Below are positions 197 to 36,042 of a stretch of 43,838 nucleotides of DNA, in pieces. Source of the DNA: Melioribacteraceae bacterium (GTDB lineage: Bacteria > Bacteroidota > Ignavibacteria > Ignavibacteriales > Melioribacteraceae); contig JAIOZI010000046.1 of assembly GCA_021740785.1 (NCBI GenBank), forward strand, positions 1-43,838, in the 5' to 3' direction. The position numbers and the translations under genes were made by a program. Every line of letters starts with the position of its first letter. Within the stretch, counting starts at the first letter, position 1. The notes beneath the pieces were generated by a model, which worked only from the letters and a program-made list of their open reading frames with translations, searched no databases and was not told where the DNA came from.

Positions 197-3100
197 ATGA
201 GTGACTTCGACGATAATCTGTTCATTGAACAATCTAAACAAATAAAAGAAAAAATCTTTGCCGGGAGAGCTTCTCTTGATTTGGATCAAATAAATCAATT
301 GATTATTGATTTTAATGATTATCTCGGGATACTAATTAAAGAGAATATATTTACCGGCAACGAGCGTTTAATAAATGAATGGTCAATAATTTTTGAAGCA
401 TTAATCCCTTCTGATCTTTCATATGAAATAGCCGATTCATTGGATACGGATGAATATTTCAATTTCGGTGAAATGATAATTTCTCTCCTCGGATCAAAAA
501 ACAACGGAATCAATAAATTAGCTCATGGCTATTTGGATCTTTTTCGTTCATCTGAATTTTTAACCAAGATTTATGAAGATCAGAAATGGCCGCTACTTAT
601 TGAAAAAATAATTGTGAAAAGCAATTTCAATTTTGCCAGGCTTTTTGAACAGCGGACTAAAGAATACGGAAATAAAACACTGTTTAAATTATTGGATAAC
701 GGTAAAGAGAAAAATTTAGACTGGGATAAAATTGATCGAGAAGTTGCTAGGTTTAGAAAGTCACTAATTCAAAATTTGGTAAAAGGCGACTTAGAAAACG
801 GTAAGGCGGCATTTCTATTAGATAATAGTCTTAATATGGCAATTCTTGATTTGGCATGTTTAACTACGGGCATTGTCAATATTATGATTCCGGCGAATTC
901 GGTATCGCAGCACGTTTCATTTATTCTGAATCAAACGAAAGCGGAATTATTGTTTGTCTCGGATGAGAAACAATTAGCAAAATTAAAAACAATAAAGAAC
1001 AACCTCCCCAATCTAAAAAAAGTTGTTATGCTGATCGGCAACAGCGCTGAGGATTGGGTCATTTCCCTAAAGGAATTTATTAATGAGGGAATTGATATTA
1101 ATGATGAGGATATTCTCAAGCAGGTAGAAAAGATTGAAATCAATGATCTTGCCACTATAATGTACACTTCTGGAACGACTGGTCAACCGAAAGGGATCAT
1201 GTTCTCGAATTTAAATATTGTATATAAAAGATTCTGCCGCGCTATGGCTTTGCCTGAAATTGGAGATAAGGACAGATTCCTTGCATACCTTCCGCTCTTT
1301 CATACTTTCGGTCGTTACCTTGAAATGACCGGTGCAATATTTTGGGGCGCTGAATATATATTTATGGAAAATCCTTCAGCGGAAACCATGATCGAAAATA
1401 TGAAACAGGTTCAGCCGACAATATTTATTTCGATTCCAAAGAAATGGATGCAGCTTTTTGAAATCATTTCGAGCAGAATAAATCTTGAACTTGATGAAAA
1501 AGAACTAATTGAAAAAACTGTTTTGGATGTAACCGGTGGAAAGTTAAAATGGGGATTGTCTGCCGCCGGGTATTTGCCTCCGGAAATATTTCAGTTTTTC
1601 CAATCTTATAATATTGAGTTAATGAGTGGCTTCGGAATGACAGAAGCTACCGGCGGTATTACCATGACTCCTCCGAATAAATATTTTCCGAATTCATTGG
1701 GTAAAGCTTTACCGGGAATTGAAATCAAAGTTGCTGATGACGGTGAACTTTTAATTCGTGGTTCATATGTTATGATCGGTTACTTTGCACAGAAGGCGGA
1801 AGAGGTTTTCATCGACGGTAACTGGTTCCCAACCGGTGATGTAATGAAAATGGATAACGATGGATTTATTGAAATTATTGACCGGAAAAAAGAAATTTAT
1901 AAAAATATAAAAGGGGAGACAATTGCTCCTCAGAGAATTGAGAATCTATTCCGTGATTTTGAATTTGTTAAGCAAGTTTTTCTTGTAGGCGATCATCGTC
2001 CCTTTAACACAGTTCTAATTTTCCCAAACTATGAATCGGAAAATGTTACCCTTGCCGCATGGGATAGTAAGCAGCAGTATGAATATTTTTCATCTGTTGT
2101 TGTAATGGTAAATAAATTTCTTGCTCCATTTGAAAGAATCATCGACTTCCGTTTGATCGAATCTCCATTTACAGAATCAAAAGGCGAACTGACGCCAAAA
2201 GGGACTTACAAACGAAGAGTTATTGAAAAAAATTATAATGATATTATTGAATCGATGTACACAAAGGATTATACTGACATTTTTGTCGGTGATTTAGAAG
2301 TAAGAATCCCAAATTGGTTTTTACGTGAACAGGGCGCCTTAAGCCGCGAGCTTATCGCTTTACCTGAGGGAATTTATCTTCCGAAAAATAAAAATGAACT
2401 TGTTATTAAAAAGTACGAAGACAATAATAAAGTATATCGAATTGGTAATTTTAATTATGAGATAACAAAAAATTATATTGATCTCCAACCGATTATTATC
2501 AACCCGCTTTACTGGCTTGGTAATAAAAATTTATTGGATTTCTGTGGTGAATCTATTTTTCAATGGTACAGGCAGAGAGAATCCGATGATAGGATTAAGT
2601 TTATTTCTGTTGCAGAATTAATTTCATCAGGGATGAACTACAAAGAACTAATTGAAAAAATGGTCAAGAGTAGTGAGAGATCACTTTACGGAGTAAACAT
2701 TGCAGTACTTCTTCTGCAAAGCACAAATTATGAAAATAATAAACTCGGTTCTGATTTTATTAAATATTTAGCAGAAGATGAAACACTTCCAATTTACCCA
2801 TTACTGATTAAGCTGCTTTCAAGACCTAATATTTCTCAGTTGATTGAAATCGCAAGATCGCTTTTTGAAAATTTGGTGTTGAAAACAAAAGGAGATGAGT
2901 TTGCAGATTATCTTTATGTTTATCTGCAATACCACAAAAACTTACTAAACGAAAGTGTAATAAAATTTATTATTGAATATGGTTACCGGGAAAATTATAA
3001 ATCATTCGAGAAAACTCTTGACCGGATAATTAAAGAGACAGATAATCTAGATGATTTGAATAGTACTGCAATTCCGGATTTGATGGATTTATTAAGCGAA

Positions 3101-5014
3101 TATGGAATGCAGCATCCAACTAAGTATGAACATATCAGGCAGATATTTGCAGCTTACCAACTTGATAAAACTCATCCTGATTTATCGGAACTGGCAAGAA
3201 GTTCCCGGAAAACATTGAGGCTTGGATTCAGAAAATGGCTTGGTGAAAATCAAAGTGTTGCCGTTGATATTGAAAACGGTGAGGAATACACTTGGAAAGA
3301 TGTAATTATTTTTGATCAAGATATTGATCCGGAAGATAAAAAAGTATTGACCACTGCGATAAAGAAATCACCAATTCTTCGAGAGGCAATATTTCTATTT
3401 TCCGGTGGTAAATTAATCAGGTTGAATGATATTCTACCCGGTGGAATTTGGATTTCAATCCTAAGGACTTTCAACAATAAAATTGTATTTCGTGCATCGG
3501 TTCAGACCCGGTTTCACGGGGCATTCGATATTTCGCTGACATTAAATAAAAGCATTTCACACGAAGCAATTATTGAAGAAGTAAACTGGATGATACTCGC
3601 AGGATCAAGGTACTTTATCCAGGAACTCGTTGAAGATTTCGGAGGTTATTGGGGTGATTATAATTTATGGAGCGGTAAATATATTCCCGGTGATACAGTT
3701 GGTAAAATGCTGCAGCGCGAAGGTAAGAAAGAAACTGAAAAATCGAAGGAAAGATTTTATCACTTATGGCCTTTCTTTATTTGGAATGCTTCGGCATCAT
3801 TTTTCAATTTTTGGAGAATGACCAATTATTCTCTTGAACTTCAGAATCCCAGCATTTATAAGTTTATTATTCCTTCACACGATTACCAAACCGGAACCAG
3901 GGTTGTGACCTTATCCGAAAGAGTTGAGTATAAAAACATCAGTGAGCTATTCTTTAATTTTTATGATAATTTTATTTCAGCCGCCGAAGAAGAGTATCCA
4001 TATCTGAAAAGAGAAAGATTGTGGAATTATATCTTTTCAGGGTTGATGCATTCGGAGGGTGAAGAAAAGGGTAAAGAATTACTGAAAAAATTTAAAGATG
4101 AAATGACAGACGGGAATACGAAATCGGAAAATTCCGAATTGATTATTAATTCTATCGATAACTATCTAAATAGGATTGAAGAGATCGGTTTTATGCAAAA
4201 ACCGCTTTACTTTGCAATTAAGAGATTCCACCGGTGGTTCAAACTAAATGAAGATGCTGCTGTGAAAGCTCAGGCGGAAATGTTAAACGAGTTATATGAA
4301 ACTTACAGATTGCATGATTTAGAAAAAAAATATCCTGAGACCAGAACAAGATTTTTCCTTGAAACTGCGTTCGCTGAATCTTCGACTCAATTGAAGAATA
4401 TACTTTCCGATATTGTTAAGAAATTACACGATAAATCAATTAATCGTGAAGATGCGATGGCGCTTGTTTCAAATATTCAGACCGAATTTACTCTTAATGA
4501 AAAAGAGAAGTATTTCATTACTCGAATCAGCTATTCACACATTAAACCGACAGATTCAGCGGAATTGGTACATATGCATTTTGACGGAAATGAAGCGGCT
4601 AATCTTGTCGTGCAATATGAGGATCTTGACGGACAGCCGTTTATTATTCGGAATCCCGTTTCTCCTAAGGAAATTTCCAGGCTGCATCAGCTTTACATCG
4701 AAGCAAATCTGCTGGTACATTTTAAACCCGAACACCATTTTCTTGTTGCGATATCCGATAGAGGGTTTATAATCGGCGGATTATTTTACAGTGCTGCACG
4801 TGAAGACTCAGTGCATATGGAAAAGATTGTCGTATCTAATCCGTACCGCAGGAAAGGGATTAGTGATAAGTTGATGAACGAATTTTTTAATAGGATGAAA
4901 AATCAGAATGTTGGATTTGTATCAACCGGCTTTTTCCGTCCCGAATATTTTTACAGGTTCGGTTTCAAAATCGAGAAGAAATATTCCGGTTTAGTAAAAT
5001 CATTGCTTGAATGA
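197..5014 (+). CDS. Fusion: AMP-forming acyl-CoA synthetase-like domain + unassigned middle + GNAT acetyltransferase
   Basis: This 1605-aa protein starts with a short helical region (about 1-145), followed by an ANL-superfamily adenylating domain (about 150-690). Visible motifs are the P-loop TSGTTGQPKG (324-333), GFGMTE (478-483), a GD-x-DGFIEIIDRKKE hinge region near 550-570 and a C-terminal catalytic-lysine-like PKGTYKR near 665. Long-chain acyl-CoA synthetases are usually about 500-650 aa, so about 900 residues are extra. Residues about 690-1475 match nothing I recognise: first a helical, repeat-like stretch, then a mixed region near 1060-1200. Residues about 1478-1600 look like a GNAT domain, with an acetyl-CoA loop in NPYRRKGISDKLM (about 1549-1561). 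An acyl- or acetyl-transfer role is inferred; the substrate is unknown. No membrane segment is evident. The gene stands alone before pyrG, with no strong ribosome binding site. Confidence 0.8.
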   Translation: MSDFDDNLFIEQSKQIKEKIFAGRASLDLDQINQLIIDFNDYLGILIKENIFTGNERLINEWSIIFEALIPSDLSYEIADSLDTDEYFNFGEMIISLLGSKNNGINKLAHGYLDLFRSSEFLTKIYEDQKWPLLIEKIIVKSNFNFARLFEQRTKEYGNKTLFKLLDNGKEKNLDWDKIDREVARFRKSLIQNLVKGDLENGKAAFLLDNSLNMAILDLACLTTGIVNIMIPANSVSQHVSFILNQTKAELLFVSDEKQLAKLKTIKNNLPNLKKVVMLIGNSAEDWVISLKEFINEGIDINDEDILKQVEKIEINDLATIMYTSGTTGQPKGIMFSNLNIVYKRFCRAMALPEIGDKDRFLAYLPLFHTFGRYLEMTGAIFWGAEYIFMENPSAETMIENMKQVQPTIFISIPKKWMQLFEIISSRINLELDEKELIEKTVLDVTGGKLKWGLSAAGYLPPEIFQFFQSYNIELMSGFGMTEATGGITMTPPNKYFPNSLGKALPGIEIKVADDGELLIRGSYVMIGYFAQKAEEVFIDGNWFPTGDVMKMDNDGFIEIIDRKKEIYKNIKGETIAPQRIENLFRDFEFVKQVFLVGDHRPFNTVLIFPNYESENVTLAAWDSKQQYEYFSSVVVMVNKFLAPFERIIDFRLIESPFTESKGELTPKGTYKRRVIEKNYNDIIESMYTKDYTDIFVGDLEVRIPNWFLREQGALSRELIALPEGIYLPKNKNELVIKKYEDNNKVYRIGNFNYEITKNYIDLQPIIINPLYWLGNKNLLDFCGESIFQWYRQRESDDRIKFISVAELISSGMNYKELIEKMVKSSERSLYGVNIAVLLLQSTNYENNKLGSDFIKYLAEDETLPIYPLLIKLLSRPNISQLIEIARSLFENLVLKTKGDEFADYLYVYLQYHKNLLNESVIKFIIEYGYRENYKSFEKTLDRIIKETDNLDDLNSTAIPDLMDLLSEYGMQHPTKYEHIRQIFAAYQLDKTHPDLSELARSSRKTLRLGFRKWLGENQSVAVDIENGEEYTWKDVIIFDQDIDPEDKKVLTTAIKKSPILREAIFLFSGGKLIRLNDILPGGIWISILRTFNNKIVFRASVQTRFHGAFDISLTLNKSISHEAIIEEVNWMILAGSRYFIQELVEDFGGYWGDYNLWSGKYIPGDTVGKMLQREGKKETEKSKERFYHLWPFFIWNASASFFNFWRMTNYSLELQNPSIYKFIIPSHDYQTGTRVVTLSERVEYKNISELFFNFYDNFISAAEEEYPYLKRERLWNYIFSGLMHSEGEEKGKELLKKFKDEMTDGNTKSENSELIINSIDNYLNRIEEIGFMQKPLYFAIKRFHRWFKLNEDAAVKAQAEMLNELYETYRLHDLEKKYPETRTRFFLETAFAESSTQLKNILSDIVKKLHDKSINREDAMALVSNIQTEFTLNEKEKYFITRISYSHIKPTDSAELVHMHFDGNEAANLVVQYEDLDGQPFIIRNPVSPKEISRLHQLYIEANLLVHFKPEHHFLVAISDRGFIIGGLFYSAAREDSVHMEKIVVSNPYRRKGISDKLMNEFFNRMKNQNVGFVSTGFFRPEYFYRFGFKIEKKYSGLVKSLLE

Positions 5015-5103: not shown

Positions 5104-8249
<3,146 letters not shown>

Positions 8250-16795: not shown

Positions 16796-18280
16796 ATGGG
16801 GCGAGCTCTTAAGATTTATGAAAAACAACTTTATAAAATCTGGAAAGAGCAGAATTTCCCGAAACATCTAAGTGTTATGAGCGGAGATGATGTGGAAGTC
16901 CTTGATATTGGTATCGAGAATATCGATACATCCGGTCCGGATTTCAAAAATGCGAGAATCCGCATTGGCAACTTAACTTATGTGGGCGATATTGAAATCG
17001 ATACAGATTACCGAAACTGGAAAGCTCATGGTCATAATATCGATAATAAATATAATAAAGTAGTTCTTCACGCAAGCCTTTTCAATCAATTTAACCAGCC
17101 TTATGTTTATACCAAAGACGGGAGAAAAGTACCGACTTTATGTCTCTCCAATTTTATTAATAATGAAATCCGTTCATCGATGGTTCAAGATTTAAAACAG
17201 AATGTTTCCAAAGCAGACAATCACAAACTAAGGTGTAATTCTTCAAATGGTGAAATCGATAATCATCTAAAAGAAAAATTTGTATCACAATTAGGAATTG
17301 AGCGGTTCAAGAAAAAATCGAAAAGAATTTATGACAGATTAAAAGAATTGAAATTTCTGAAGGAGATGAAAATTCATGAACCGGTAATATCTTACGAGTT
17401 GACACCGGAGTTTGAAAAAAGAAAATTCACACAAGAAGATTTTAAGGATAGAGAAATTTGGGAACAGCTTTTTTATGAATTAATTTTCGAGGCGCTCGGT
17501 TATTCAAAAAACAAATCAATAATGCAAAAACTTGCTCAGTCTGCAAATATCGGTGTAATCAAAATGCTCGGACATGATGACGAGACAAGGGAGAGAATTG
17601 AATCACTTCTGTTTAATATTGCCGGGTTGGCTCCTGATACCAATAACTTACCGAATAAGGAAATTTCCGATTATGCATTAATCCTGAAATCTCACTGGGA
17701 TATAATAAGTCGTATTTATGACGGAGAAATTTATGATGAAACAAAATGGCATTTCTTCAAATTGCGTCCGCAAAATTTTCCGACTATTAGAATCGCAGGC
17801 GGCACGAAAATTTTGCTTGATATTATTTTTAACGATTTAATTGGTAAGCTGATTAAAAAGTTTACCGAGATTCGGAATTTAACGGTTCTAATTAATTCAG
17901 TTAGATCACTTTTTGTATTAAGATCGGATGGTTTTTGGCAGAAGCATTATGTGTTTAATAAACCCGCCGGAAATGATATAAAATATTTTGTAGGTGCATC
18001 ACGCGCAGATGAAATTGTAATTAACGTTGTCCTTCCTTACCTCCTGGTTTATTTCGATATTTTTAATAACGAGCAAATGTCGAAAAAGGTAATAAAAATT
18101 TATTCGATTTACCAACAGAGGTCGGATAATAAAATTGTACGGGAAGTAGGAGAAAGTTTAGGATTATCAAGACATATAAAGCGAACAATTTATTCACAGG
18201 GATTAATAGAACTATTCAGGTCCTATTGTTCTCAAAATAAATGCCTTGAATGCGAAATCGGAAAGATAGTTTTCAATTAG
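16796..18280 (+). CDS. DUF2851 family protein, function unknown
   Basis: This 494-aa protein matches my memory of DUF2851, a family of unknown function found mainly in Bacteroidota and relatives. Recognisable parts are the N-terminal LYKIWKEQNF and DIGIENIDTSGPDFKNARI, followed by VGDIEIDTDYRNWKAHGH and KVVLHASLF. The conserved Asp, Glu and His residues in that stretch look like a catalytic or metal site, perhaps nuclease-like, but that is inference. The C-terminus has three cysteines (478, 483, 486) in CSQNKCLEC, a possible metal-binding knuckle. The start is supported by AAAGG 7 bp upstream of the ATG. It is soluble with no signal peptide. It converges with the minus-strand nuclease gene, with only 7 bp between the stops. 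Confidence 0.75.
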   Translation: MGRALKIYEKQLYKIWKEQNFPKHLSVMSGDDVEVLDIGIENIDTSGPDFKNARIRIGNLTYVGDIEIDTDYRNWKAHGHNIDNKYNKVVLHASLFNQFNQPYVYTKDGRKVPTLCLSNFINNEIRSSMVQDLKQNVSKADNHKLRCNSSNGEIDNHLKEKFVSQLGIERFKKKSKRIYDRLKELKFLKEMKIHEPVISYELTPEFEKRKFTQEDFKDREIWEQLFYELIFEALGYSKNKSIMQKLAQSANIGVIKMLGHDDETRERIESLLFNIAGLAPDTNNLPNKEISDYALILKSHWDIISRIYDGEIYDETKWHFFKLRPQNFPTIRIAGGTKILLDIIFNDLIGKLIKKFTEIRNLTVLINSVRSLFVLRSDGFWQKHYVFNKPAGNDIKYFVGASRADEIVINVVLPYLLVYFDIFNNEQMSKKVIKIYSIYQQRSDNKIVREVGESLGLSRHIKRTIYSQGLIELFRSYCSQNKCLECEIGKIVFN

Positions 18281-29515: not shown

Positions 29516-32500
29516 ATGGCTCATGATTTCAGAATGATAAAAATAATTCTAAAAAGAGATCCAAAGAATCTTAGCGAGTACTGCAATGGAATATTCCCGA
29601 CTTATGAATTCCATATCGCAAAAGAATTACGAAAAAAATATGAAATTGAAAATGAATTATTCATATCAAACGGGAATGTTGTATTTGTCAATAATCATGC
29701 TGTAAGACTCTTTGTTCAAAAATTAAATTCAAAAAGAGCAATTGATACCCATGTTAGAATCGGAGAGGTGAATGCAATTGGATTACTTGATGAAATTTAT
29801 CATTTCCTTTTGCGTGAATATGAATTATCTGAGAATCCCGGTGTTTTCAAAAAGGCTTATGATCATCTAAACAATAAGATTGGTGAAAACGATTTTAGAA
29901 AATTGCTTTTTGATTTCATCTCAATCTTCCCGCCGATGGATGTTTACCACGGTCATGTTTCTGCATATGATTATTTAAACTCTTACACGGAAGGCAGAGC
30001 CAACCTGGAAATTACAATCGAAGAGATGCTCTTACTATATTTTTCCAATGTAAATCCGGGCGCTCAAAAGTTACGCGAACTATTTAGCGACGGATATTTC
30101 AGCAATCGAAAGTTATACGACAAGTTTATTTTGGAACTGGACAAATTCTTTCAGAATGAGAAAAAATTCGGACCCGATTCACAGGATATTTTTACATTCT
30201 TACGCACCCCGATTATATCAAGTCCGGATGACCTATACGGTCAGCTTGAGTTTATCCGTACAAAATGGAAAGTGCTGATAGAAAGCAAATTTTTAAAACG
30301 TCTTTTAATCAGCAAAGATTTAATGAAAGAAGATATTGTATTCGAATCAGCAGGCGGGGGTGGTGGTGGAGCTCCGACGATTGTACCGAAGTATAAAGGC
30401 AAAGCTGACGAAGCCGAGGTACTTTCCATCGGGAAATCAATGTACAAGTATGGTAAGGACGCTTACCTTGATTATGAGGAATCCGAACAATTTACACCGG
30501 ATACCAACTGGATGCCGAGAGTGGTTTTAATTGCAAAAAATACGTACGTCTGGCTCGATCAACTTTCAAAAAAATACGGAAGACATATTCACCGTTTAGA
30601 CCAAGTTCCGGATGAGGAACTCGACGAGATGGCGCGATGGAATTTTAACGGTCTGTGGTTGATAGGCATTTGGGAGCGAAGTAATGCTTCTAAAAAAATT
30701 AAACATATACTCGGGAATGTTGATGCTGTCGCCTCTGCCTATTCTCTTTATGATTATCAGATTGCTCAAAATATCGGCGGGGAAGAAGCGTATGATGATC
30801 TGAATAAACGTGCGAAGATCAGAGGAATTCGTTTGGCAAGTGATATGGTTCCGAATCATACAGGAATTTATTCAAAATGGGTTAGTGAGAATCCGGATTA
30901 TTTTATTCAATCGAAATTTTCACCGTTTCCAAATTATAAATTCGGCGGAGAGAACTTATCCGAAGACCCAAACTATCAGGTTAGAATTGAAGACGGATAC
31001 TGGAACAGAACCGATGCCGCTGTAGTTTTCCAAAGAATTGATAATAATACCGGTGATGTCAGATATATTTATCACGGTAATGATGGAACGAATATGCCGT
31101 GGAATGATACTGCTCAACTCGACCTTCTGAAAAAAGAAGTGCGGCAGGCAGTGATTGATAAAATTTTTGAGGTGGCACGAAAATTTTCAATTATTCGATT
31201 CGATGCAGCTATGACTTTGACAAAAAAACATTTTTCTCGACTTTGGTATCCACAACCGGGAATGGGCGGTGATATTCCATCGCGTACCGACTATGCTTTA
31301 ACCCGGGAAGAGTTCGATAACTTTTTCCCCGTCGAATTTTGGAGAGAAGTAGTTGATAAAATAAATGAGGAGATGCCGGAAACTCTATTGTTAGCCGAAG
31401 CATTTTGGTTAATGGAGGGCTATTTTGTTAGATCTCTCGGCATGCACCGTGTGTATAACAGCGCATTTATGCATATGATGATGAAAGAGGAAAATGAAAA
31501 ATACCGTGATCTTATTACCAATACTCTTGAGTTTGAACCGGAAATTTTAAAGCGTTACGTGAATTTTATGAGTAATCCCGATGAAGAAACTGCAATAAAA
31601 CAGTTCGGTACCGGTGATAAATATTTCGGCGTTTGTATGATGATGATAACTCTTCCGGGTCTGCCGATGTTTGCCCACGGACAGATTCAGGGTTTTACGG
31701 AAAAATACGGTATGGAATATCAGCGTGCATACTATAACGAAACACCTAATGCACAATTGATTGAAAGACATGAACGTGAATTATTCCCGTTGATGAAAAA
31801 GCGCTATTTGTTCAGCAATGTTATTGATTTTTGGTTCTACGATGTGATTGATGAATTCGGAAATATAAATGAAAATGTATTTGCATACACTAACGAGTAC
31901 GGTAACGAAAAAGCGTTTGTACTTTACAATAATAAATTTGAGCGTGTCGAAGGCAGGATTTATCATTCAACACCGAAATTAGTCGGTGATAAAAAGTTAC
32001 CCGAAACTATATCATTAAAAGATGCACTCGGAATAAAGGATGAAAAAAATCATTACTACATATTCCGAGAGAGTTCAACAAGACTTGAGTATATAAGGAC
32101 TGCTGCTGAGTTTTCACAGGATGGATACCCGGTTGCTCTGAACGGATTTGAATATAAAATTTTTGTTGATTTCAGAGAAGTTTACGATAGTGATGGAAAA
32201 TATAAACAAGTTGCAGATATTCTAAATGGTGAAGGTGTTCCAAGTGTTGAAAGGAAACTAATGGAAATTGAACTTGAGCCGATTCACAAAGCCTTTGAAA
32301 AATTATTTGATGAAAAATCACTTTCGATTTTTATTGATAATTTTATACTTGAATCGGAAGAAAAAGATGAAACCGATGATGAAAAATTTCTGAAAAACAA
32401 ATTTCATTATTTCCTCAATACAATTGAAACACATTTTAATCTGCGGCTTGAATTAAATCATAGTGTTAGTGAATTTGAGAATTGGTTGGGTGCCGTAAAA

Positions 32501-33361
32501 CTCATGAATGAAAAATTAAGAGAAGGTTGTTTTTATGATAAAAAAGTAATCTTTACTACACTGAATAAGGCAGTTATGATCACGGCGGAAACTAATTATT
32601 TTGAAAATTCCCTTTTGATTTTGATTCATCAAGTTCTTCACCGGGTCGAAAATTTATTTGAAGGTGCTGATGAAAAGTTTAAAAGAATAAGTGAAAAATT
32701 ATTGTTGGATGATCCGATTAAAAGAGTGTTGAAAAGGTTGGGCAGAAGTGATGAAGATATTTATAAAGAGTTCACGATTCTAAACATTTTGCTCGACTAT
32801 GATACTGCATTGTTCAATTTGACGGAAGAAGAAAAAGTATTATTCGATAAAAAAACTCAAGTGAATATTCCGGAATTTGTTGCAAAGAGACGAAAAAAAG
32901 ATTTGCAAAAATTATTTGAGGATGATTACGTTAAAGCATTCCTGGGCGTTAATTTTTATGACGGTATTTGGTATTTCAGCAAGGAAAATTTTGATGAACT
33001 TTTTAACTGGTTATTTACTTTATCAATAGTTTCCTTATTCTATAATAAAAGTAAAGATGCGGATTCAAGCGTTAAAAAATCTTTCCTAATTTATAATCAT
33101 ATAATTAATCAATCGCATAGCTCAGGCTATAAATGGGAAGAACTCAAAGACCATCTGTTTAAGATCGATGTTGATGCTGAAGAACCAAGTAAAGGTGAAA
33201 CATTAGGCTCGGAGGAAGTGAAAAAGGGAAAATCATCATCCGCGAATAAAAAAACAGTTAAGAAAAAAGTTACAAAGAAGAATAAAAGTAATAAAGCTTC
33301 GGTTGAGAAAAACAAATCGACGAAAAAGAAACCAGCTGATAAAAAGAAAGGAGACGAATAG
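29516..33361 (+). CDS. Large GH13 alpha-amylase-family protein with Lys-rich tail
   Basis: This 1281-aa protein has a GH13 (alpha-amylase family) barrel in about residues 330-750. Region I DMVPNHTG carries Asp443, Asn447 and His448; region II is IRFDAAM with nucleophile Asp563; region III LLLAEAFW has acid/base Glu628. Region IV reads SNPDEE, with Asp689 but Pro688 where most family members have His. Ahead of the barrel are about 300 unassigned helical residues and a Gly-rich linker near 280-290 (AGGGGGGAP). After it comes a C-terminal region of about 400 residues with no fold I recognise. The last about 50 residues are Lys/Ser-rich low complexity. No signal peptide is seen, so a cytoplasmic alpha-glucan role is likely; substrate and reaction are unknown. 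GGAG precedes the ATG. Confidence 0.85.
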   Translation: MAHDFRMIKIILKRDPKNLSEYCNGIFPTYEFHIAKELRKKYEIENELFISNGNVVFVNNHAVRLFVQKLNSKRAIDTHVRIGEVNAIGLLDEIYHFLLREYELSENPGVFKKAYDHLNNKIGENDFRKLLFDFISIFPPMDVYHGHVSAYDYLNSYTEGRANLEITIEEMLLLYFSNVNPGAQKLRELFSDGYFSNRKLYDKFILELDKFFQNEKKFGPDSQDIFTFLRTPIISSPDDLYGQLEFIRTKWKVLIESKFLKRLLISKDLMKEDIVFESAGGGGGGAPTIVPKYKGKADEAEVLSIGKSMYKYGKDAYLDYEESEQFTPDTNWMPRVVLIAKNTYVWLDQLSKKYGRHIHRLDQVPDEELDEMARWNFNGLWLIGIWERSNASKKIKHILGNVDAVASAYSLYDYQIAQNIGGEEAYDDLNKRAKIRGIRLASDMVPNHTGIYSKWVSENPDYFIQSKFSPFPNYKFGGENLSEDPNYQVRIEDGYWNRTDAAVVFQRIDNNTGDVRYIYHGNDGTNMPWNDTAQLDLLKKEVRQAVIDKIFEVARKFSIIRFDAAMTLTKKHFSRLWYPQPGMGGDIPSRTDYALTREEFDNFFPVEFWREVVDKINEEMPETLLLAEAFWLMEGYFVRSLGMHRVYNSAFMHMMMKEENEKYRDLITNTLEFEPEILKRYVNFMSNPDEETAIKQFGTGDKYFGVCMMMITLPGLPMFAHGQIQGFTEKYGMEYQRAYYNETPNAQLIERHERELFPLMKKRYLFSNVIDFWFYDVIDEFGNINENVFAYTNEYGNEKAFVLYNNKFERVEGRIYHSTPKLVGDKKLPETISLKDALGIKDEKNHYYIFRESSTRLEYIRTAAEFSQDGYPVALNGFEYKIFVDFREVYDSDGKYKQVADILNGEGVPSVERKLMEIELEPIHKAFEKLFDEKSLSIFIDNFILESEEKDETDDEKFLKNKFHYFLNTIETHFNLRLELNHSVSEFENWLGAVKLMNEKLREGCFYDKKVIFTTLNKAVMITAETNYFENSLLILIHQVLHRVENLFEGADEKFKRISEKLLLDDPIKRVLKRLGRSDEDIYKEFTILNILLDYDTALFNLTEEEKVLFDKKTQVNIPEFVAKRRKKDLQKLFEDDYVKAFLGVNFYDGIWYFSKENFDELFNWLFTLSIVSLFYNKSKDADSSVKKSFLIYNHIINQSHSSGYKWEELKDHLFKIDVDAEEPSKGETLGSEEVKKGKSSSANKKTVKKKVTKKNKSNKASVEKNKSTKKKPADKKKGDE

Positions 33362-34225
33362 TTAAAGCGGATCAAGGTGAATAGTCGTTTCAATATCAAG
33401 TTTCTCCTTAATTGACTGTTCAATATCATCAACTATAGCATGTGCGTCCTTCACGGTCATCTCGCCCGGAAGCATAATGTGGAAAGTTAACTCTTGATGA
33501 TTTCCATAATCATGCAAATGAAGGTGATGCAAGTGTATATTTCTTTCAATTTTTTTGCTGCATATATTTTCAATCTCATTTGTTAGCTTCTCATTCGGTA
33601 TTTCGCCTAGGAGGGGATTAATTGCATCGTGTAAAATTTCATACGAAGCGTAAAAAATTAATATTGCCACCATAAATCCAAGCAGTCCGTCAATCCAAGG
33701 GAAAATACTCTGAAGGAAAATACCAATTAAAATTATTACTGATGAAATTGCATCTGACCTATGATGCCATGCATCTGCGATTAATGATTTCAGATTATTT
33801 TTTTTCCCCGCCCATAATGAATATTGTGCCAATCCTTCTTTAACAATAACAGAAATTATCGTTACGACAATTGCAGCCGTTCCGTATTTCACCGACTCTT
33901 GGTTAATTAATCTCTGGATTGATTCGTAAGCAAAGTTGAAAGCTATTATAGATAAAATAACGCCTATAATTATCGCGGCAATAAGTTCGGCTCTGCCGTG
34001 TCCGAATGGATGTTCGCTGTCCGCGGGTTTTGCCGAAATCTTAACACCGATAAGTACGATTACTGACGATACACTATCTGAGATTGTGTGCCACGCATCC
34101 GCAATAAGAGCAATAGAGCCGGTAATAATACCAACCCAATATTTCAAAATGAATAATACAGTGTTGAGAATTATTGAAACCCACCCAACGCGGTAACCTT
34201 CTTTATAAATGATATTATTGCTCAA
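33362..34225 (-). CDS. Cation diffusion facilitator family transporter
   Basis: A divalent-metal/proton antiporter of the inner membrane, probably for zinc or a similar metal. It has 287 aa with about six membrane segments and a C-terminal cytoplasmic domain. The metal site is visible in segment 2 (DAWHTISD) and segment 5 (DAWHHRSD), each with H-x-x-x-D, and is flanked by the family's GHGRAELIAA. The C-terminal domain has a run of histidines (HLHHLHLHDYG) typical of zinc-binding regulatory regions. The start is TTG with GGAAG just upstream. Its stop abuts the GH13 stop with no gap, so transcription from the two genes must collide or read through. Confidence 0.9.
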   Translation of the reverse strand: MSNNIIYKEGYRVGWVSIILNTVLFILKYWVGIITGSIALIADAWHTISDSVSSVIVLIGVKISAKPADSEHPFGHGRAELIAAIIIGVILSIIAFNFAYESIQRLINQESVKYGTAAIVVTIISVIVKEGLAQYSLWAGKKNNLKSLIADAWHHRSDAISSVIILIGIFLQSIFPWIDGLLGFMVAILIFYASYEILHDAINPLLGEIPNEKLTNEIENICSKKIERNIHLHHLHLHDYGNHQELTFHIMLPGEMTVKDAHAIVDDIEQSIKEKLDIETTIHLDPL

Positions 34226-34332
34226 TGTCTTCCCAAATGATTTTTACAAAATTAGTAAATCTTATCGGAATATTTAATGAATTATCTTTATTTTTAATAG
34301 ATAAACATATCCAAAACAAAATTGGATTTAAT

Positions 34333-36042
34333 ATGAAAAAAGAAAACGTCCTTTACAATGTACCGCAAATCAAATCTATACAAGATATGGTTTTGCAATC
34401 TGCTGAACGGTATTCAACCAAATTAGCTTTTGAGGATTTAAATCAAACACCTTTAGGAAGGGTAACCTACTCCGAATTGCTTGATAAAATATTAAGATTT
34501 GGAACAGCGCTAAGAAAGATGGGATTGGAGGAAAGGTCGCACATTGCGGTTCTCGGTGAGAATCGAGTGCAATGGTCAGTTACATTTTTAACATGTATGT
34601 GTTTCAATTATGTGGTTGTCCCGATTGATAAAAATCTAACGGAAAATGAAATTCTTAACATACTTCATGAATCTGATTCAAAAGCAATTGTTTTTTCGGA
34701 AAGTTTTGCCGAAATGTTTCTCGGTGGTCATTCTTCGCTGAAAAAGATCAACCAGTTTGTTTGTATGGATAGAACAAAATCATCTGAATTCACGGGGATG
34801 ATTGAAATAATTAATTCAACTGATCCTATTGCTAAAGAGGAACTGCCGAAAATTAATCCTAATGATTTAGCGGAAATTATTTTTACTTCAGGCTCACTCG
34901 GCAGGGCAAAAGGTGTTATGCTGAGTCAGAAAAATCTATCTTCTAATTTAATGGATATGTTAAGCATGTTGTGCATGTATCCTGAAGATAGGTTCTTATC
35001 TGTGTTGCCTATTCATCATACATATGAGTGTACTTGCGGAATGATGTGTCCGTTATTTGCAGGTTCATCAATTCACTATGCGCGTTCATTAAAAACGATT
35101 GTTGACGATATACAAAAAGTAAAAGCCACAATTCTACTTGGCGTACCTTTGCTTTATGATAAGATGTATAAACGTGTAACCAAATCAATATCAGATGACA
35201 AAGTAAAGTCGAAGATTGTACCACCTTTAATGAAACTGACAAATTATACTTCTAAGCTCGGCTTGAAAAACTTGAAGAAAAAAATATTTCACGAACTTCA
35301 TGAGAGATTCGGCGGAGAAGTCAGAGTATTTATTGCCGGCGGTGCAGCGCCTGATCCACTGGTGGCAAAAGGTTTGCGGGAATTCGGTTTTAATTTTATT
35401 CAAGGTTACGGTTTAACTGAAACATCTCCGATACTAGCATTAAACAGATTAGATAATTTCAAAGATGATGCTGCGGGAATACCTCTTCCGCATGTTGAAA
35501 TAAAAATTAATAATCCCGATGAAAACGGTTCCGGAGAAATTTGGGCAAAGGGACCTAACATTATGCTGGGTTATTATAAAAATCAGAAACTTACCGAAGA
35601 TACTTTTGAAGCCGGCTGGTTCAAAACCGGAGATATCGGGTATGTTAGTGGTGATGGATTTCTGCACATCAACGGCAGGATGAAAAATGTAATTATATCG
35701 AAAAGCGGTAAAAATGTTTTCCCGGAAGAAATTGAAGACATATTAAATAGAAGTATATATATCCTTGAAAGTTTGGTCTTCGGTGAAGAAGATGTTAAAC
35801 ATGATGAAATTATCGCAGCCCAAATTGTAGTAGATGCGGATGCATTTATAGAACTTGCTGAAAAAGAAGGCAGAACAATTGATGATGAGTTTATTAAATC
35901 AATTATCGATGAAGAAATTAAACTCGTTAATAAACAACTTGCCGGGTATAAACAAATAAAGAAGTTCTATATTAGAGAAAATGAGTTTGAGAAAACCACA
36001 ACTCAAAAGATCAAAAGATATCTTGCAAAGAAAGATGAATAA
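34333..36042 (+). CDS. AMP-dependent synthetase / long-chain acyl-CoA ligase-like protein
   Basis: This 569-aa ANL-family ligase activates an acid by adenylation, probably a fatty acid. Motifs are GYGLTETSPI, GYYKNQKLTEDTF, FKTGDIGYVSGDGFLHINGR and a C-terminal KIKRYLAKKDE with a candidate catalytic lysine. The P-loop is TSGSLGRAKG (185-194): Leu replaces the usual Thr at the fifth position and Ala replaces Pro, while the lysine and glycines are kept. An upstream in-frame ATG at 34225 would add 36 residues, but that region overlaps the CDF start and is unlike the family's N-termini, so I chose the internal ATG. A terminator follows. Active enzyme is probable, not certain. Confidence 0.85.
   Translation: MKKENVLYNVPQIKSIQDMVLQSAERYSTKLAFEDLNQTPLGRVTYSELLDKILRFGTALRKMGLEERSHIAVLGENRVQWSVTFLTCMCFNYVVVPIDKNLTENEILNILHESDSKAIVFSESFAEMFLGGHSSLKKINQFVCMDRTKSSEFTGMIEIINSTDPIAKEELPKINPNDLAEIIFTSGSLGRAKGVMLSQKNLSSNLMDMLSMLCMYPEDRFLSVLPIHHTYECTCGMMCPLFAGSSIHYARSLKTIVDDIQKVKATILLGVPLLYDKMYKRVTKSISDDKVKSKIVPPLMKLTNYTSKLGLKNLKKKIFHELHERFGGEVRVFIAGGAAPDPLVAKGLREFGFNFIQGYGLTETSPILALNRLDNFKDDAAGIPLPHVEIKINNPDENGSGEIWAKGPNIMLGYYKNQKLTEDTFEAGWFKTGDIGYVSGDGFLHINGRMKNVIISKSGKNVFPEEIEDILNRSIYILESLVFGEEDVKHDEIIAAQIVVDADAFIELAEKEGRTIDDEFIKSIIDEEIKLVNKQLAGYKQIKKFYIRENEFEKTTTQKIKRYLAKKDE

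Follow-up and report, generated by a model that had tools for sequence, protein, structure and literature searches.

Two described kinds of system pair an acyl-CoA synthetase, or a domain resembling one, with a GNAT acetyltransferase, and both invite comparison with the gene considered here, which occupies positions 197-5014 on the forward strand of a 43,838-nucleotide contig from a Melioribacteraceae bacterium (GenBank assembly GCA_021740785.1, contig JAIOZI010000046.1; this whole stretch is called the window below) and encodes a protein of 1605 residues. In the Pat-type lysine acetyltransferases of types I and II, a synthetase-like domain and a GNAT domain likewise share one large chain, but that synthetase-like domain is nucleoside diphosphate (NDP)-forming, according to passages of PMC11254643, whereas the synthetase of the window protein is adenosine monophosphate (AMP)-forming with its core motifs intact, and only the window protein has a predicted helical-repeat and pseudokinase region between the two. 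No NDP-forming acyl-CoA synthetase-like domain was found by Pfam in the window protein, the only families matched at E up to 1 being of the AMP-binding and GNAT types. The AcuA-AcsA system of B. subtilis likewise partners an AMP-forming synthetase with a GNAT acetyltransferase, but there the partners are distinct proteins and come apart on acetylation (passages of PMC11255334), whereas the window protein is a single chain with a kinase-like domain in between.

The 1605-residue architecture is a real, conserved unit and not an assembly fusion. Each recognised part has a known fold, and the combination appears to be undescribed: the lysine acetyltransferase types listed in passages of PMC11254643 (NDP-forming-like, effector-binding and GNAT-only) include none that unites an AMP-forming synthetase with a pseudokinase, and no description of the synthetase/pseudokinase/GNAT combination was found among the matches listed from openly licensed PMC papers. 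Our preferred reading, held tentatively and short of calling it probable, is that of a single-chain, self-fed protein lysine acyltransferase or regulator whose pseudokinase would bind the client. As such it might be a regulator of a new kind, one that acylates proteins and feeds itself; if protein acylation proves true, an AMP-forming-synthetase type would be added to the lysine acetyltransferase classification as given in passages of PMC11254643, and a testable link would tie citrate synthase and a pseudokinase to the activation of acyl groups in little-studied phyla. The parts of the gene, with the evidence for each, are these:

197-5014, + strand: whole gene, acyl-CoA synthetase / helical repeat / pseudokinase / GNAT protein (open reading frame; relatives of similar length)
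197-637, + strand: N-terminal variable region, residues 1-147 (no Pfam family found; mean identity 23.7% over residues 1-145 in the main group of relatives)
644-2266, + strand: AMP-forming acyl-CoA synthetase (ANL) domain, residues 150-690 (Pfam AMP-binding and AMP-binding_C_3; PDB profile matches)
1166-1198, + strand: ANL P-loop TSGTTGxPKGI, residues 324-334 (invariant positions in 71 sequences)
1832-1906, + strand: TGD ... DRxKxIYKN motifs, residues 546-570 (invariant positions in 71 sequences)
2186-2215, + strand: A10 region ELTPKGTYKR, residues 664-673 (alignments)
2267-2566, + strand: small beta-rich module, residues 691-790 (AlphaFold model, conservation)
2633-3241, + strand: helical repeat region, residues 813-1015 (AlphaFold model)
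3314-4156, + strand: predicted protein-kinase-like (pseudokinase) domain, residues about 1040-1320 (AlphaFold, Foldseek, VIA)
3665-3697, + strand: kinase hinge equivalent, beta-5 and YIPGDTV, residues 1157-1167 (model; weak hhalign match)
3833-3922, + strand: degenerate catalytic loop and DFG region, residues 1213-1242 (model, alignment)
4157-4546, + strand: C-terminal helical region, residues 1321-1450 (AlphaFold model, conservation)
4604-5011, + strand: GCN5-like GNAT acetyltransferase domain, residues 1470-1605 (VIA, PDB profile)
4847-4864, + strand: acetyl-CoA pyrophosphate loop RxxGxS, residues 1551-1556 (alignment)

A conserved open reading frame

The open reading frame (ORF) starts with an ATG and runs without an internal stop; on the minus strand of 197-5014 the one translated frame was rich in stops, and none of the listed ORFs of at least 100 residues lies there. 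The genome is 99.9% complete and measures 4.85 Mb in 115 contigs, the window being contig C111. Pfam places AMP-binding at residues 150-530 (E = 1.2e-58), AMP-binding_C_3 at 571-690 (1e-13) and several GNAT families at the C-terminus (best Acetyltransf_1, 1504-1577, 6.5e-06), and it finds nothing at E up to 1 from residue 691 to about 1490; among the NCBIfam matches listed (25 of 100), all fall on the synthetase part. A sequence-only reading of this DNA had recognised an ANL P-loop and related motifs at one end and a GNAT-like acetyl-CoA loop at the other (RRKGIS, 1551-1556), and both assignments are borne out by motifs kept throughout the family. A role in anti-phage defence was considered and dropped, PADLOC giving no match.

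That reading had also proposed looking for the full-length architecture in related genomes, where it recurs as a conserved unit across the class and in several phyla. A search of 395 genomes of the phylum with residues 691-1475 as query found the middle region in 20, the open frames measuring 1515-1638 residues (the window's own frame measured in this way is 1611). A profile search of the class found it in 55 of 391 genomes, 50 of the 56 match rows lying in open frames longer than 1,500 residues; the other six are in shorter frames or cover the region only in part, with one of the six at a marginal E of 9.9e-4. An initial scan of named genomes returned no relatives; a later pattern scan returned 88, with 80 loci kept. 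Going by their labels, these are Ignavibacteria, with many Melioribacteraceae among them, Calditrichota, Gemmatimonadota, Acidobacteriota and Planctomycetota, together with several bins assigned to Bacteroidetes and a small number assigned to Deferribacteres, Caldisericaceae or Chlorobiota (metagenome-bin labels can be wrong); 66 of the 80 are closed frames of more than 1,500 residues. Because its patterns were derived from main-type sequences, the pattern scan is probably blind to the divergent type described below. An assembly or annotation artefact joining separate genes, which the sequence-only reading had named as a way in which it could be wrong, would account for the unusual length and for nothing further; since the same chain occurs in independent assemblies from several phyla, this explanation is rejected, its probability being negligible.

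The large alignment omits fourteen of the 80 named loci, their frames being open-ended, broken or below 1,500 residues (L054, L061, L068, L084, L085, L092, L103, L113, L117, L118, L121, L122, L123 and L124), and removal of sequences more than 80% identical to a kept one reduced the set from 82 to 71. In the tree of these, 59 sequences make up a main clade, nine Gemmatimonadota forming a clade of their own within it, and the other 12, from genomes of the same class as the window, make up a divergent clade; conservation below is counted over these sequences. The likeness goes beyond chance: in frames of nearly constant length, the kinase-like stretch (1016-1355) shares 34-57% identity with the window protein among main-group relatives and 19-22% in three of the divergent type. 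Over 71 sequences, pairwise distances in the ANL domain correlate with those in the kinase-like (rho 0.89), helical (0.86) and GNAT (0.93) domains, with 0 of 999 permutations as high for each of the three, a pattern to be expected of domains that move as one.

The divergent subtype (L137-L148 and L045-L047, from other genomes of the class) has the same architecture in about 1,510-1,555 residues, is mostly gapped at the GEEY motif (residues 1030-1031) and is without a citrate synthase neighbour. Within one taxonomic family, the main type is found in some genera and the divergent type in others.

The synthetase and acetyltransferase ends

The signature motifs of the synthetase are kept nearly without exception. 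In the P-loop TSGTTGxPKG (324-333), T324, S325, G326, T or S at 327, T328, G329 and K332 are present in 71/71 sequences, P331 in 69/71 and G333 in 70/71, and the A5 glutamate (E483), the A7 Gly-Asp (G547, D548) and the A8 DRxK motif (D562, R563, K565) are present in all 71. Among PDB profile matches that cover almost all of the domain, carboxylic acid reductase 5mso is best (E = 8e-37); a luciferase outranks it by E-value with a match in two pieces. The best NCBIfam model is of a long-chain enzyme type, at 207.9 bits (below the model's cut-off of 476). With carboxylic acid reductase and the long-chain acyl-CoA synthetases the window protein has in common the ANL core and the type of C-terminal subdomain, but no reductase or carrier domain was found in it, its C-terminal partners are different, and its A10 lysine stands two residues earlier.

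In that A10 region the column that usually holds the lysine (670) is Thr or Ser in 71/71 sequences, and the invariant lysine is K668 (71/71). Carboxylic acid reductase 5mso has its lysine in the usual column, as do four of the five other synthetases compared from the same genome (C21, C58, C24 and C111b), the fifth being shifted in the same way. Given this displacement, we regard adenylation by the domain as no more than plausible. The shifted fifth enzyme is a stand-alone synthetase of 621 residues (G000:C9:8807-10597; L002, L006) that reads PKLS at this place. A second AMP-binding enzyme, of 605 residues (Pfam 4.5e-73) and with about 24% identity to the ANL part, is encoded in the window at 34225-36042.

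At the other end of the chain, structure comparison by VIA (in which Z scores within 1 are tied and the best Z is typically 7-8 for models without a clear match) gives a GNAT fold, with YhbS 4rs2 best (Z 16.2, 133 residues, 1.9 A) and, among the others, Tetrahymena GCN5 (15.4), ArgA (15.0) and the SlPat GNAT with an acetyl-CoA synthetase C-terminal domain (4u5y, 13.4). By profile the nearest PDB sequence is Tetrahymena GCN5, a protein lysine acetyltransferase (E = 4e-10). The acetyl-CoA loop [RQ]xxGx[GAS] is kept in both groups: R1551 in 59/59 main and 10/12 divergent sequences, G1554 in 58/59 and 12/12, and residue 1556 as S or A in 59/59 and as G or A in 12/12. The domain thus has the fold and the acetyl-CoA loop of the GCN5/PCAF histone acetyltransferases, but it has mostly His at the place of their catalytic Glu and is embedded in an unrelated multidomain chain.

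A GNAT tied to an AMP-forming synthetase could also act on its own chain, acylating the fused synthetase (for example at K668 in A10) as a tethered version of AcuA-AcsA, with the middle region as a scaffold or sensor. AcuA, a binding partner of AcsA, acetylates it at K549, the lysine of its A10 region (passages of PMC11255334), and the invariance of K668 and the presence of SlPat among the fold matches are in keeping with control in cis. The usual lysine column is, however, occupied by Thr or Ser, and nearly 800 intervening residues, as well as the link to citrate synthase described below, would be left unexplained; we consider this explanation rather unlikely.

The kinase-like middle region

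The sequence-only reading could not assign the roughly 780 residues between the two enzymes and had proposed structure prediction and Foldseek for them; these give a protein-kinase-like fold plus helical parts. In the AlphaFold model of residues 690-1605 (20 aligned sequences, mean pLDDT, the predicted local confidence, 88.8), a beta-rich module (about 692-790) is followed by successive helices (814-1015), the kinase-like domain, further helices and the GNAT. Conservation extends to the flanking modules, with W773, G775 and N776 of the beta-rich module in 59/59 main-group sequences and W1347, R1383 and T1390 of the C-terminal helical region in 71/71.

Because the VIA rows for the 916-residue model were filled by its GNAT part, residues 1016-1355 were modelled alone (62 sequences, pLDDT 92.3). 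The best match is then Bud32 4ww7 (Z 13.1, 220 residues, 4.4 A), with PRPK (12.9), PsiK (12.6), choline kinase (11.9) and Rio1 (11.7) among the others, and all of the 50 matches listed (Z 10.6-13.1, residues 1046-1315) are kinase-like, counting three chains of larger complexes (8k20_B, 6zxg_z and 6zxd_z) that we take to be Bud32 or a RIO kinase. Residues of about 1040-1320 are predicted, on this model, to have a protein-kinase-like fold of the Bud32/PRPK/choline-kinase kind. With Bud32/PRPK, RIO and choline kinase the modelled residues 1046-1315 have the fold in common, but they differ from them in having no conserved beta-3 Lys, no DFG Asp and no significant sequence match.

Pfam over the middle region of 20 members, and NCBIfam over the kinase-like stretch of 62, matched only families hit by single members (best E 0.041 and 0.0053, respectively). 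The possibility, raised in the sequence-only reading, that the middle is a well-known domain of a described protein family is borne out for the fold, which is well known, but not for the family, none having been found by Pfam or, for the kinase-like part, by NCBIfam. Sequence profiles against the PDB gave no significant kinase match (best E about 0.2), the rows comprising weak matches to the kinases MST1/MST2 at the hinge (E 0.43-0.66; 0.21-0.97) and three unrelated chains. Comparison by hhalign with aminoglycoside-phosphotransferase-type proteins gave nothing, whereas Ser/Thr kinases from related genomes aligned weakly and locally, at the hinge and the catalytic loop (p 0.004, probability 8%); the hhalign kinase comparisons took in 24 of 25 and 10 of 11 rows. 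In this weak match YIPGDTV stands opposite the kinase hinge, and the family consensus near 1215-1225 opposite the HRD loop and the strand after it, in agreement with the mapping by secondary structure, and kinase positions were assigned from the model and this match together. Two earlier remarks are upheld by them: YIPGDTV near 1160, described as kinase-hinge-like, falls at the hinge, with beta-5 modelled at 1157-1161 and helix D at 1168-1178, and no HxD catalytic loop had been visible in the sequence, the corresponding stretch (1215-1222) being degenerate.

With residue places assigned from structure in this way, no conserved lysine stands within 1109-1118 for the beta-3 lysine of the VAIK motif (1117 is N in 44/59, and 1118 is K in 23/59 main and 1/12 divergent sequences), and the place of the DFG Asp (1238, S/T) is Ser in 58/59 and 12/12, 1240 likewise showing no conserved Asp (S in 41/59). 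With neither a conserved beta-3 Lys nor a DFG Asp, the predicted kinase-like domain is called a pseudokinase. It could instead be an active but atypical kinase, or a nucleotidyl transferase, which would put three enzymes in one chain: the place of the HRD Asp (1217) is D in 28, N in 18 and E in 9 of 59 main-group sequences, so that 46/59 have D or N; the loop-Asn place (1222) is N in 44 and D in 9 of 59, and N in 12/12 divergent sequences; and D1229-Y1230, in the beta-7/beta-8 loop, is present in 59/59 main-group sequences (D in 5/12 and Y in 3/12 of the divergent). Against it stand the missing Lys and Asp and a beta-1/beta-2 turn of about three residues in the model, with no glycine-rich loop of the usual size, and we think such activity improbable.

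In the SAGA complex, TRRAP/Tra1, which consists of helical repeats and a pseudokinase, acts with the GCN5 acetyltransferase, the two being separate proteins in eukaryotes. The likeness to the window protein is one of domain kinds and not of demonstrable homology, ATM and Vps34, in which helical and kinase domains are joined, appearing among the top 15 Foldseek rows for the long model at low TM-scores (0.18-0.30). No FAT or FATC domain of the PIKK/TRRAP kind is among the Pfam matches, which remote versions might escape. The window protein would, on the boldest version of our preferred reading, be a bacterial single-chain counterpart of this pseudokinase-scaffolded acetyltransferase that also makes its own acyl-CoA, and so a new class of lysine acyltransferase: an AMP-forming synthetase would supply the GCN5-like domain, and the client, probably at the step of citrate synthase, would be chosen by a pseudokinase with helical repeats. 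We regard this version as unlikely.

Citrate synthase, deacylases and the proposed function

Citrate synthase is a recurrent neighbour of the gene in its relatives (by blastp cluster, 3 of the 35 clustered copies having been confirmed by Pfam). Neighbours were counted for 72 main-type loci, namely the window and 71 loci with a recovered frame of more than 1,200 residues (the short or broken L103 and L122 included). Among the 66 that have an upstream ORF, the first such ORF is a same-strand citrate synthase in 24, at gaps of 22-644 bp; in 33/72 loci the enzyme is encoded within three ORFs. The latter comprise 28 of the 46 loci, mostly of Ignavibacteria, that fall outside the Calditrichota set and the Gemmatimonadota/Acidobacteriota/Planctomycetota set, and 5 of the 17 in that last set, where it takes other places or orientations and where all five are Gemmatimonadota or their sister L109.

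In the window's own genome the only citrate synthase copy found is at the end of contig C51 and points toward that end, and the last 102 bases of C51 are the first 102 of the window. This stretch is a dispersed repeat, so that the adjacency is not proved by the overlap and rests on synteny; with the support of the relatives, it is likely that citrate synthase directly adjoins the gene here too. The repeat copy at 1-147 of the window, which contains a palindrome (72-100), is one of at least 40 near-full copies of this roughly 150-bp element in the genome (93-100% identity; 40 of 225 candidates scored), and several contigs start inside the repeat.

The recurrent nearness of citrate synthase suggests a client, or a process, at the entry of acetyl-CoA into the tricarboxylic acid (TCA) cycle. 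To the observed domain anatomy we would add, by inference, a coupling, a substrate and a client. The AMP-forming synthetase would activate a carboxylic acid and make acyl-CoA; the helical and pseudokinase part would hold a protein client or else sense a nucleotide; and the GNAT would move an acetyl or acyl group onto a client lysine. The synthetase's product could thus be handed to the acyltransferase and then to a bound partner, as the sequence-only reading had supposed. The process under control would be the step at which acetyl-CoA joins the TCA cycle, and citrate synthase the first candidate client; acetylation is described as altering the activity of E. coli citrate synthase (passages of PMC11254643).

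Deacylases were compared between 24 of the 26 carrier genomes in the window's family (G629 and G670 left out) and the 20 non-carriers that had been listed. A histone-deacetylase-type gene (PF00850) is present in 12/24 carriers and 0/20 non-carriers (one-sided 1.3e-4 by genome), an association that is suggestive only and that would make reversible acylation in carriers at least possible.

Several observations weigh against this tentative picture of a self-fed protein acyltransferase. The PF00850 association is confounded by kinship (9/18 versus 0/7 by genus, one-sided 0.024), the match in the window genome itself is a frame of 138 residues, and sirtuins, present in 44/44 genomes tested, are therefore uninformative. 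Citrate synthase is near the gene in 0/9 Calditrichota/Caldisericota loci and in 0/15 loci of the divergent type. The displaced A10 lysine counts here as well, as does the likeness of the synthetase to long-chain enzymes, whereas GCN5-like domains usually move acetyl. Finally, the place of the GCN5 catalytic Glu in beta-4 (H1540) is His in 43/59; GNATs other than GCN5 use other bases.

Some of the same facts would suit a biosynthetic enzyme, in which the GNAT uses the synthetase's acyl-CoA to N-acylate a small molecule (an amino acid, a polyamine or a lipid head group) and the kinase-like part binds that substrate, as in choline-kinase-like and tryptamine-kinase-like folds. GNATs often take small amines as substrates, and ArgA is among the fold matches of this one; the synthetase is most like long-chain enzymes; the middle region matches choline kinase and PsiK in fold; and squalene-synthase-like and HpnE-like genes lie upstream in 19 loci (labels from sequence reading, no family search having been made). 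But among PDB sequences the GNAT matches GCN5 best, no constant biosynthetic cluster was found among the neighbours, and the squalene-type genes are restricted to the Ignavibacteria group. A biosynthetic role is, in our estimate, rather unlikely.

Downstream of the gene, the window continues with a neighbour that is also found in relatives:

5122-6753, + strand: CTP synthase (pyrG), the next gene in the window and in the loci of 14 relatives

After it come genes for a tetratricopeptide repeat (TPR) protein, purN, purH, mreBCD and mrdA. Elsewhere in the window, 29516-33361 holds an ORF of 1281 residues with no Pfam match at E 1e-10, and 16796-18280 encodes a DUF2851 protein of unknown function. 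In four Calditrichota loci (L087, L088, L093 and L096), a gene on the opposite strand overlaps the end of the synthetase/GNAT gene by about 30 bases; in L093 it encodes a major facilitator superfamily (MFS) transporter, and in the other three it belongs to the same blastp cluster.

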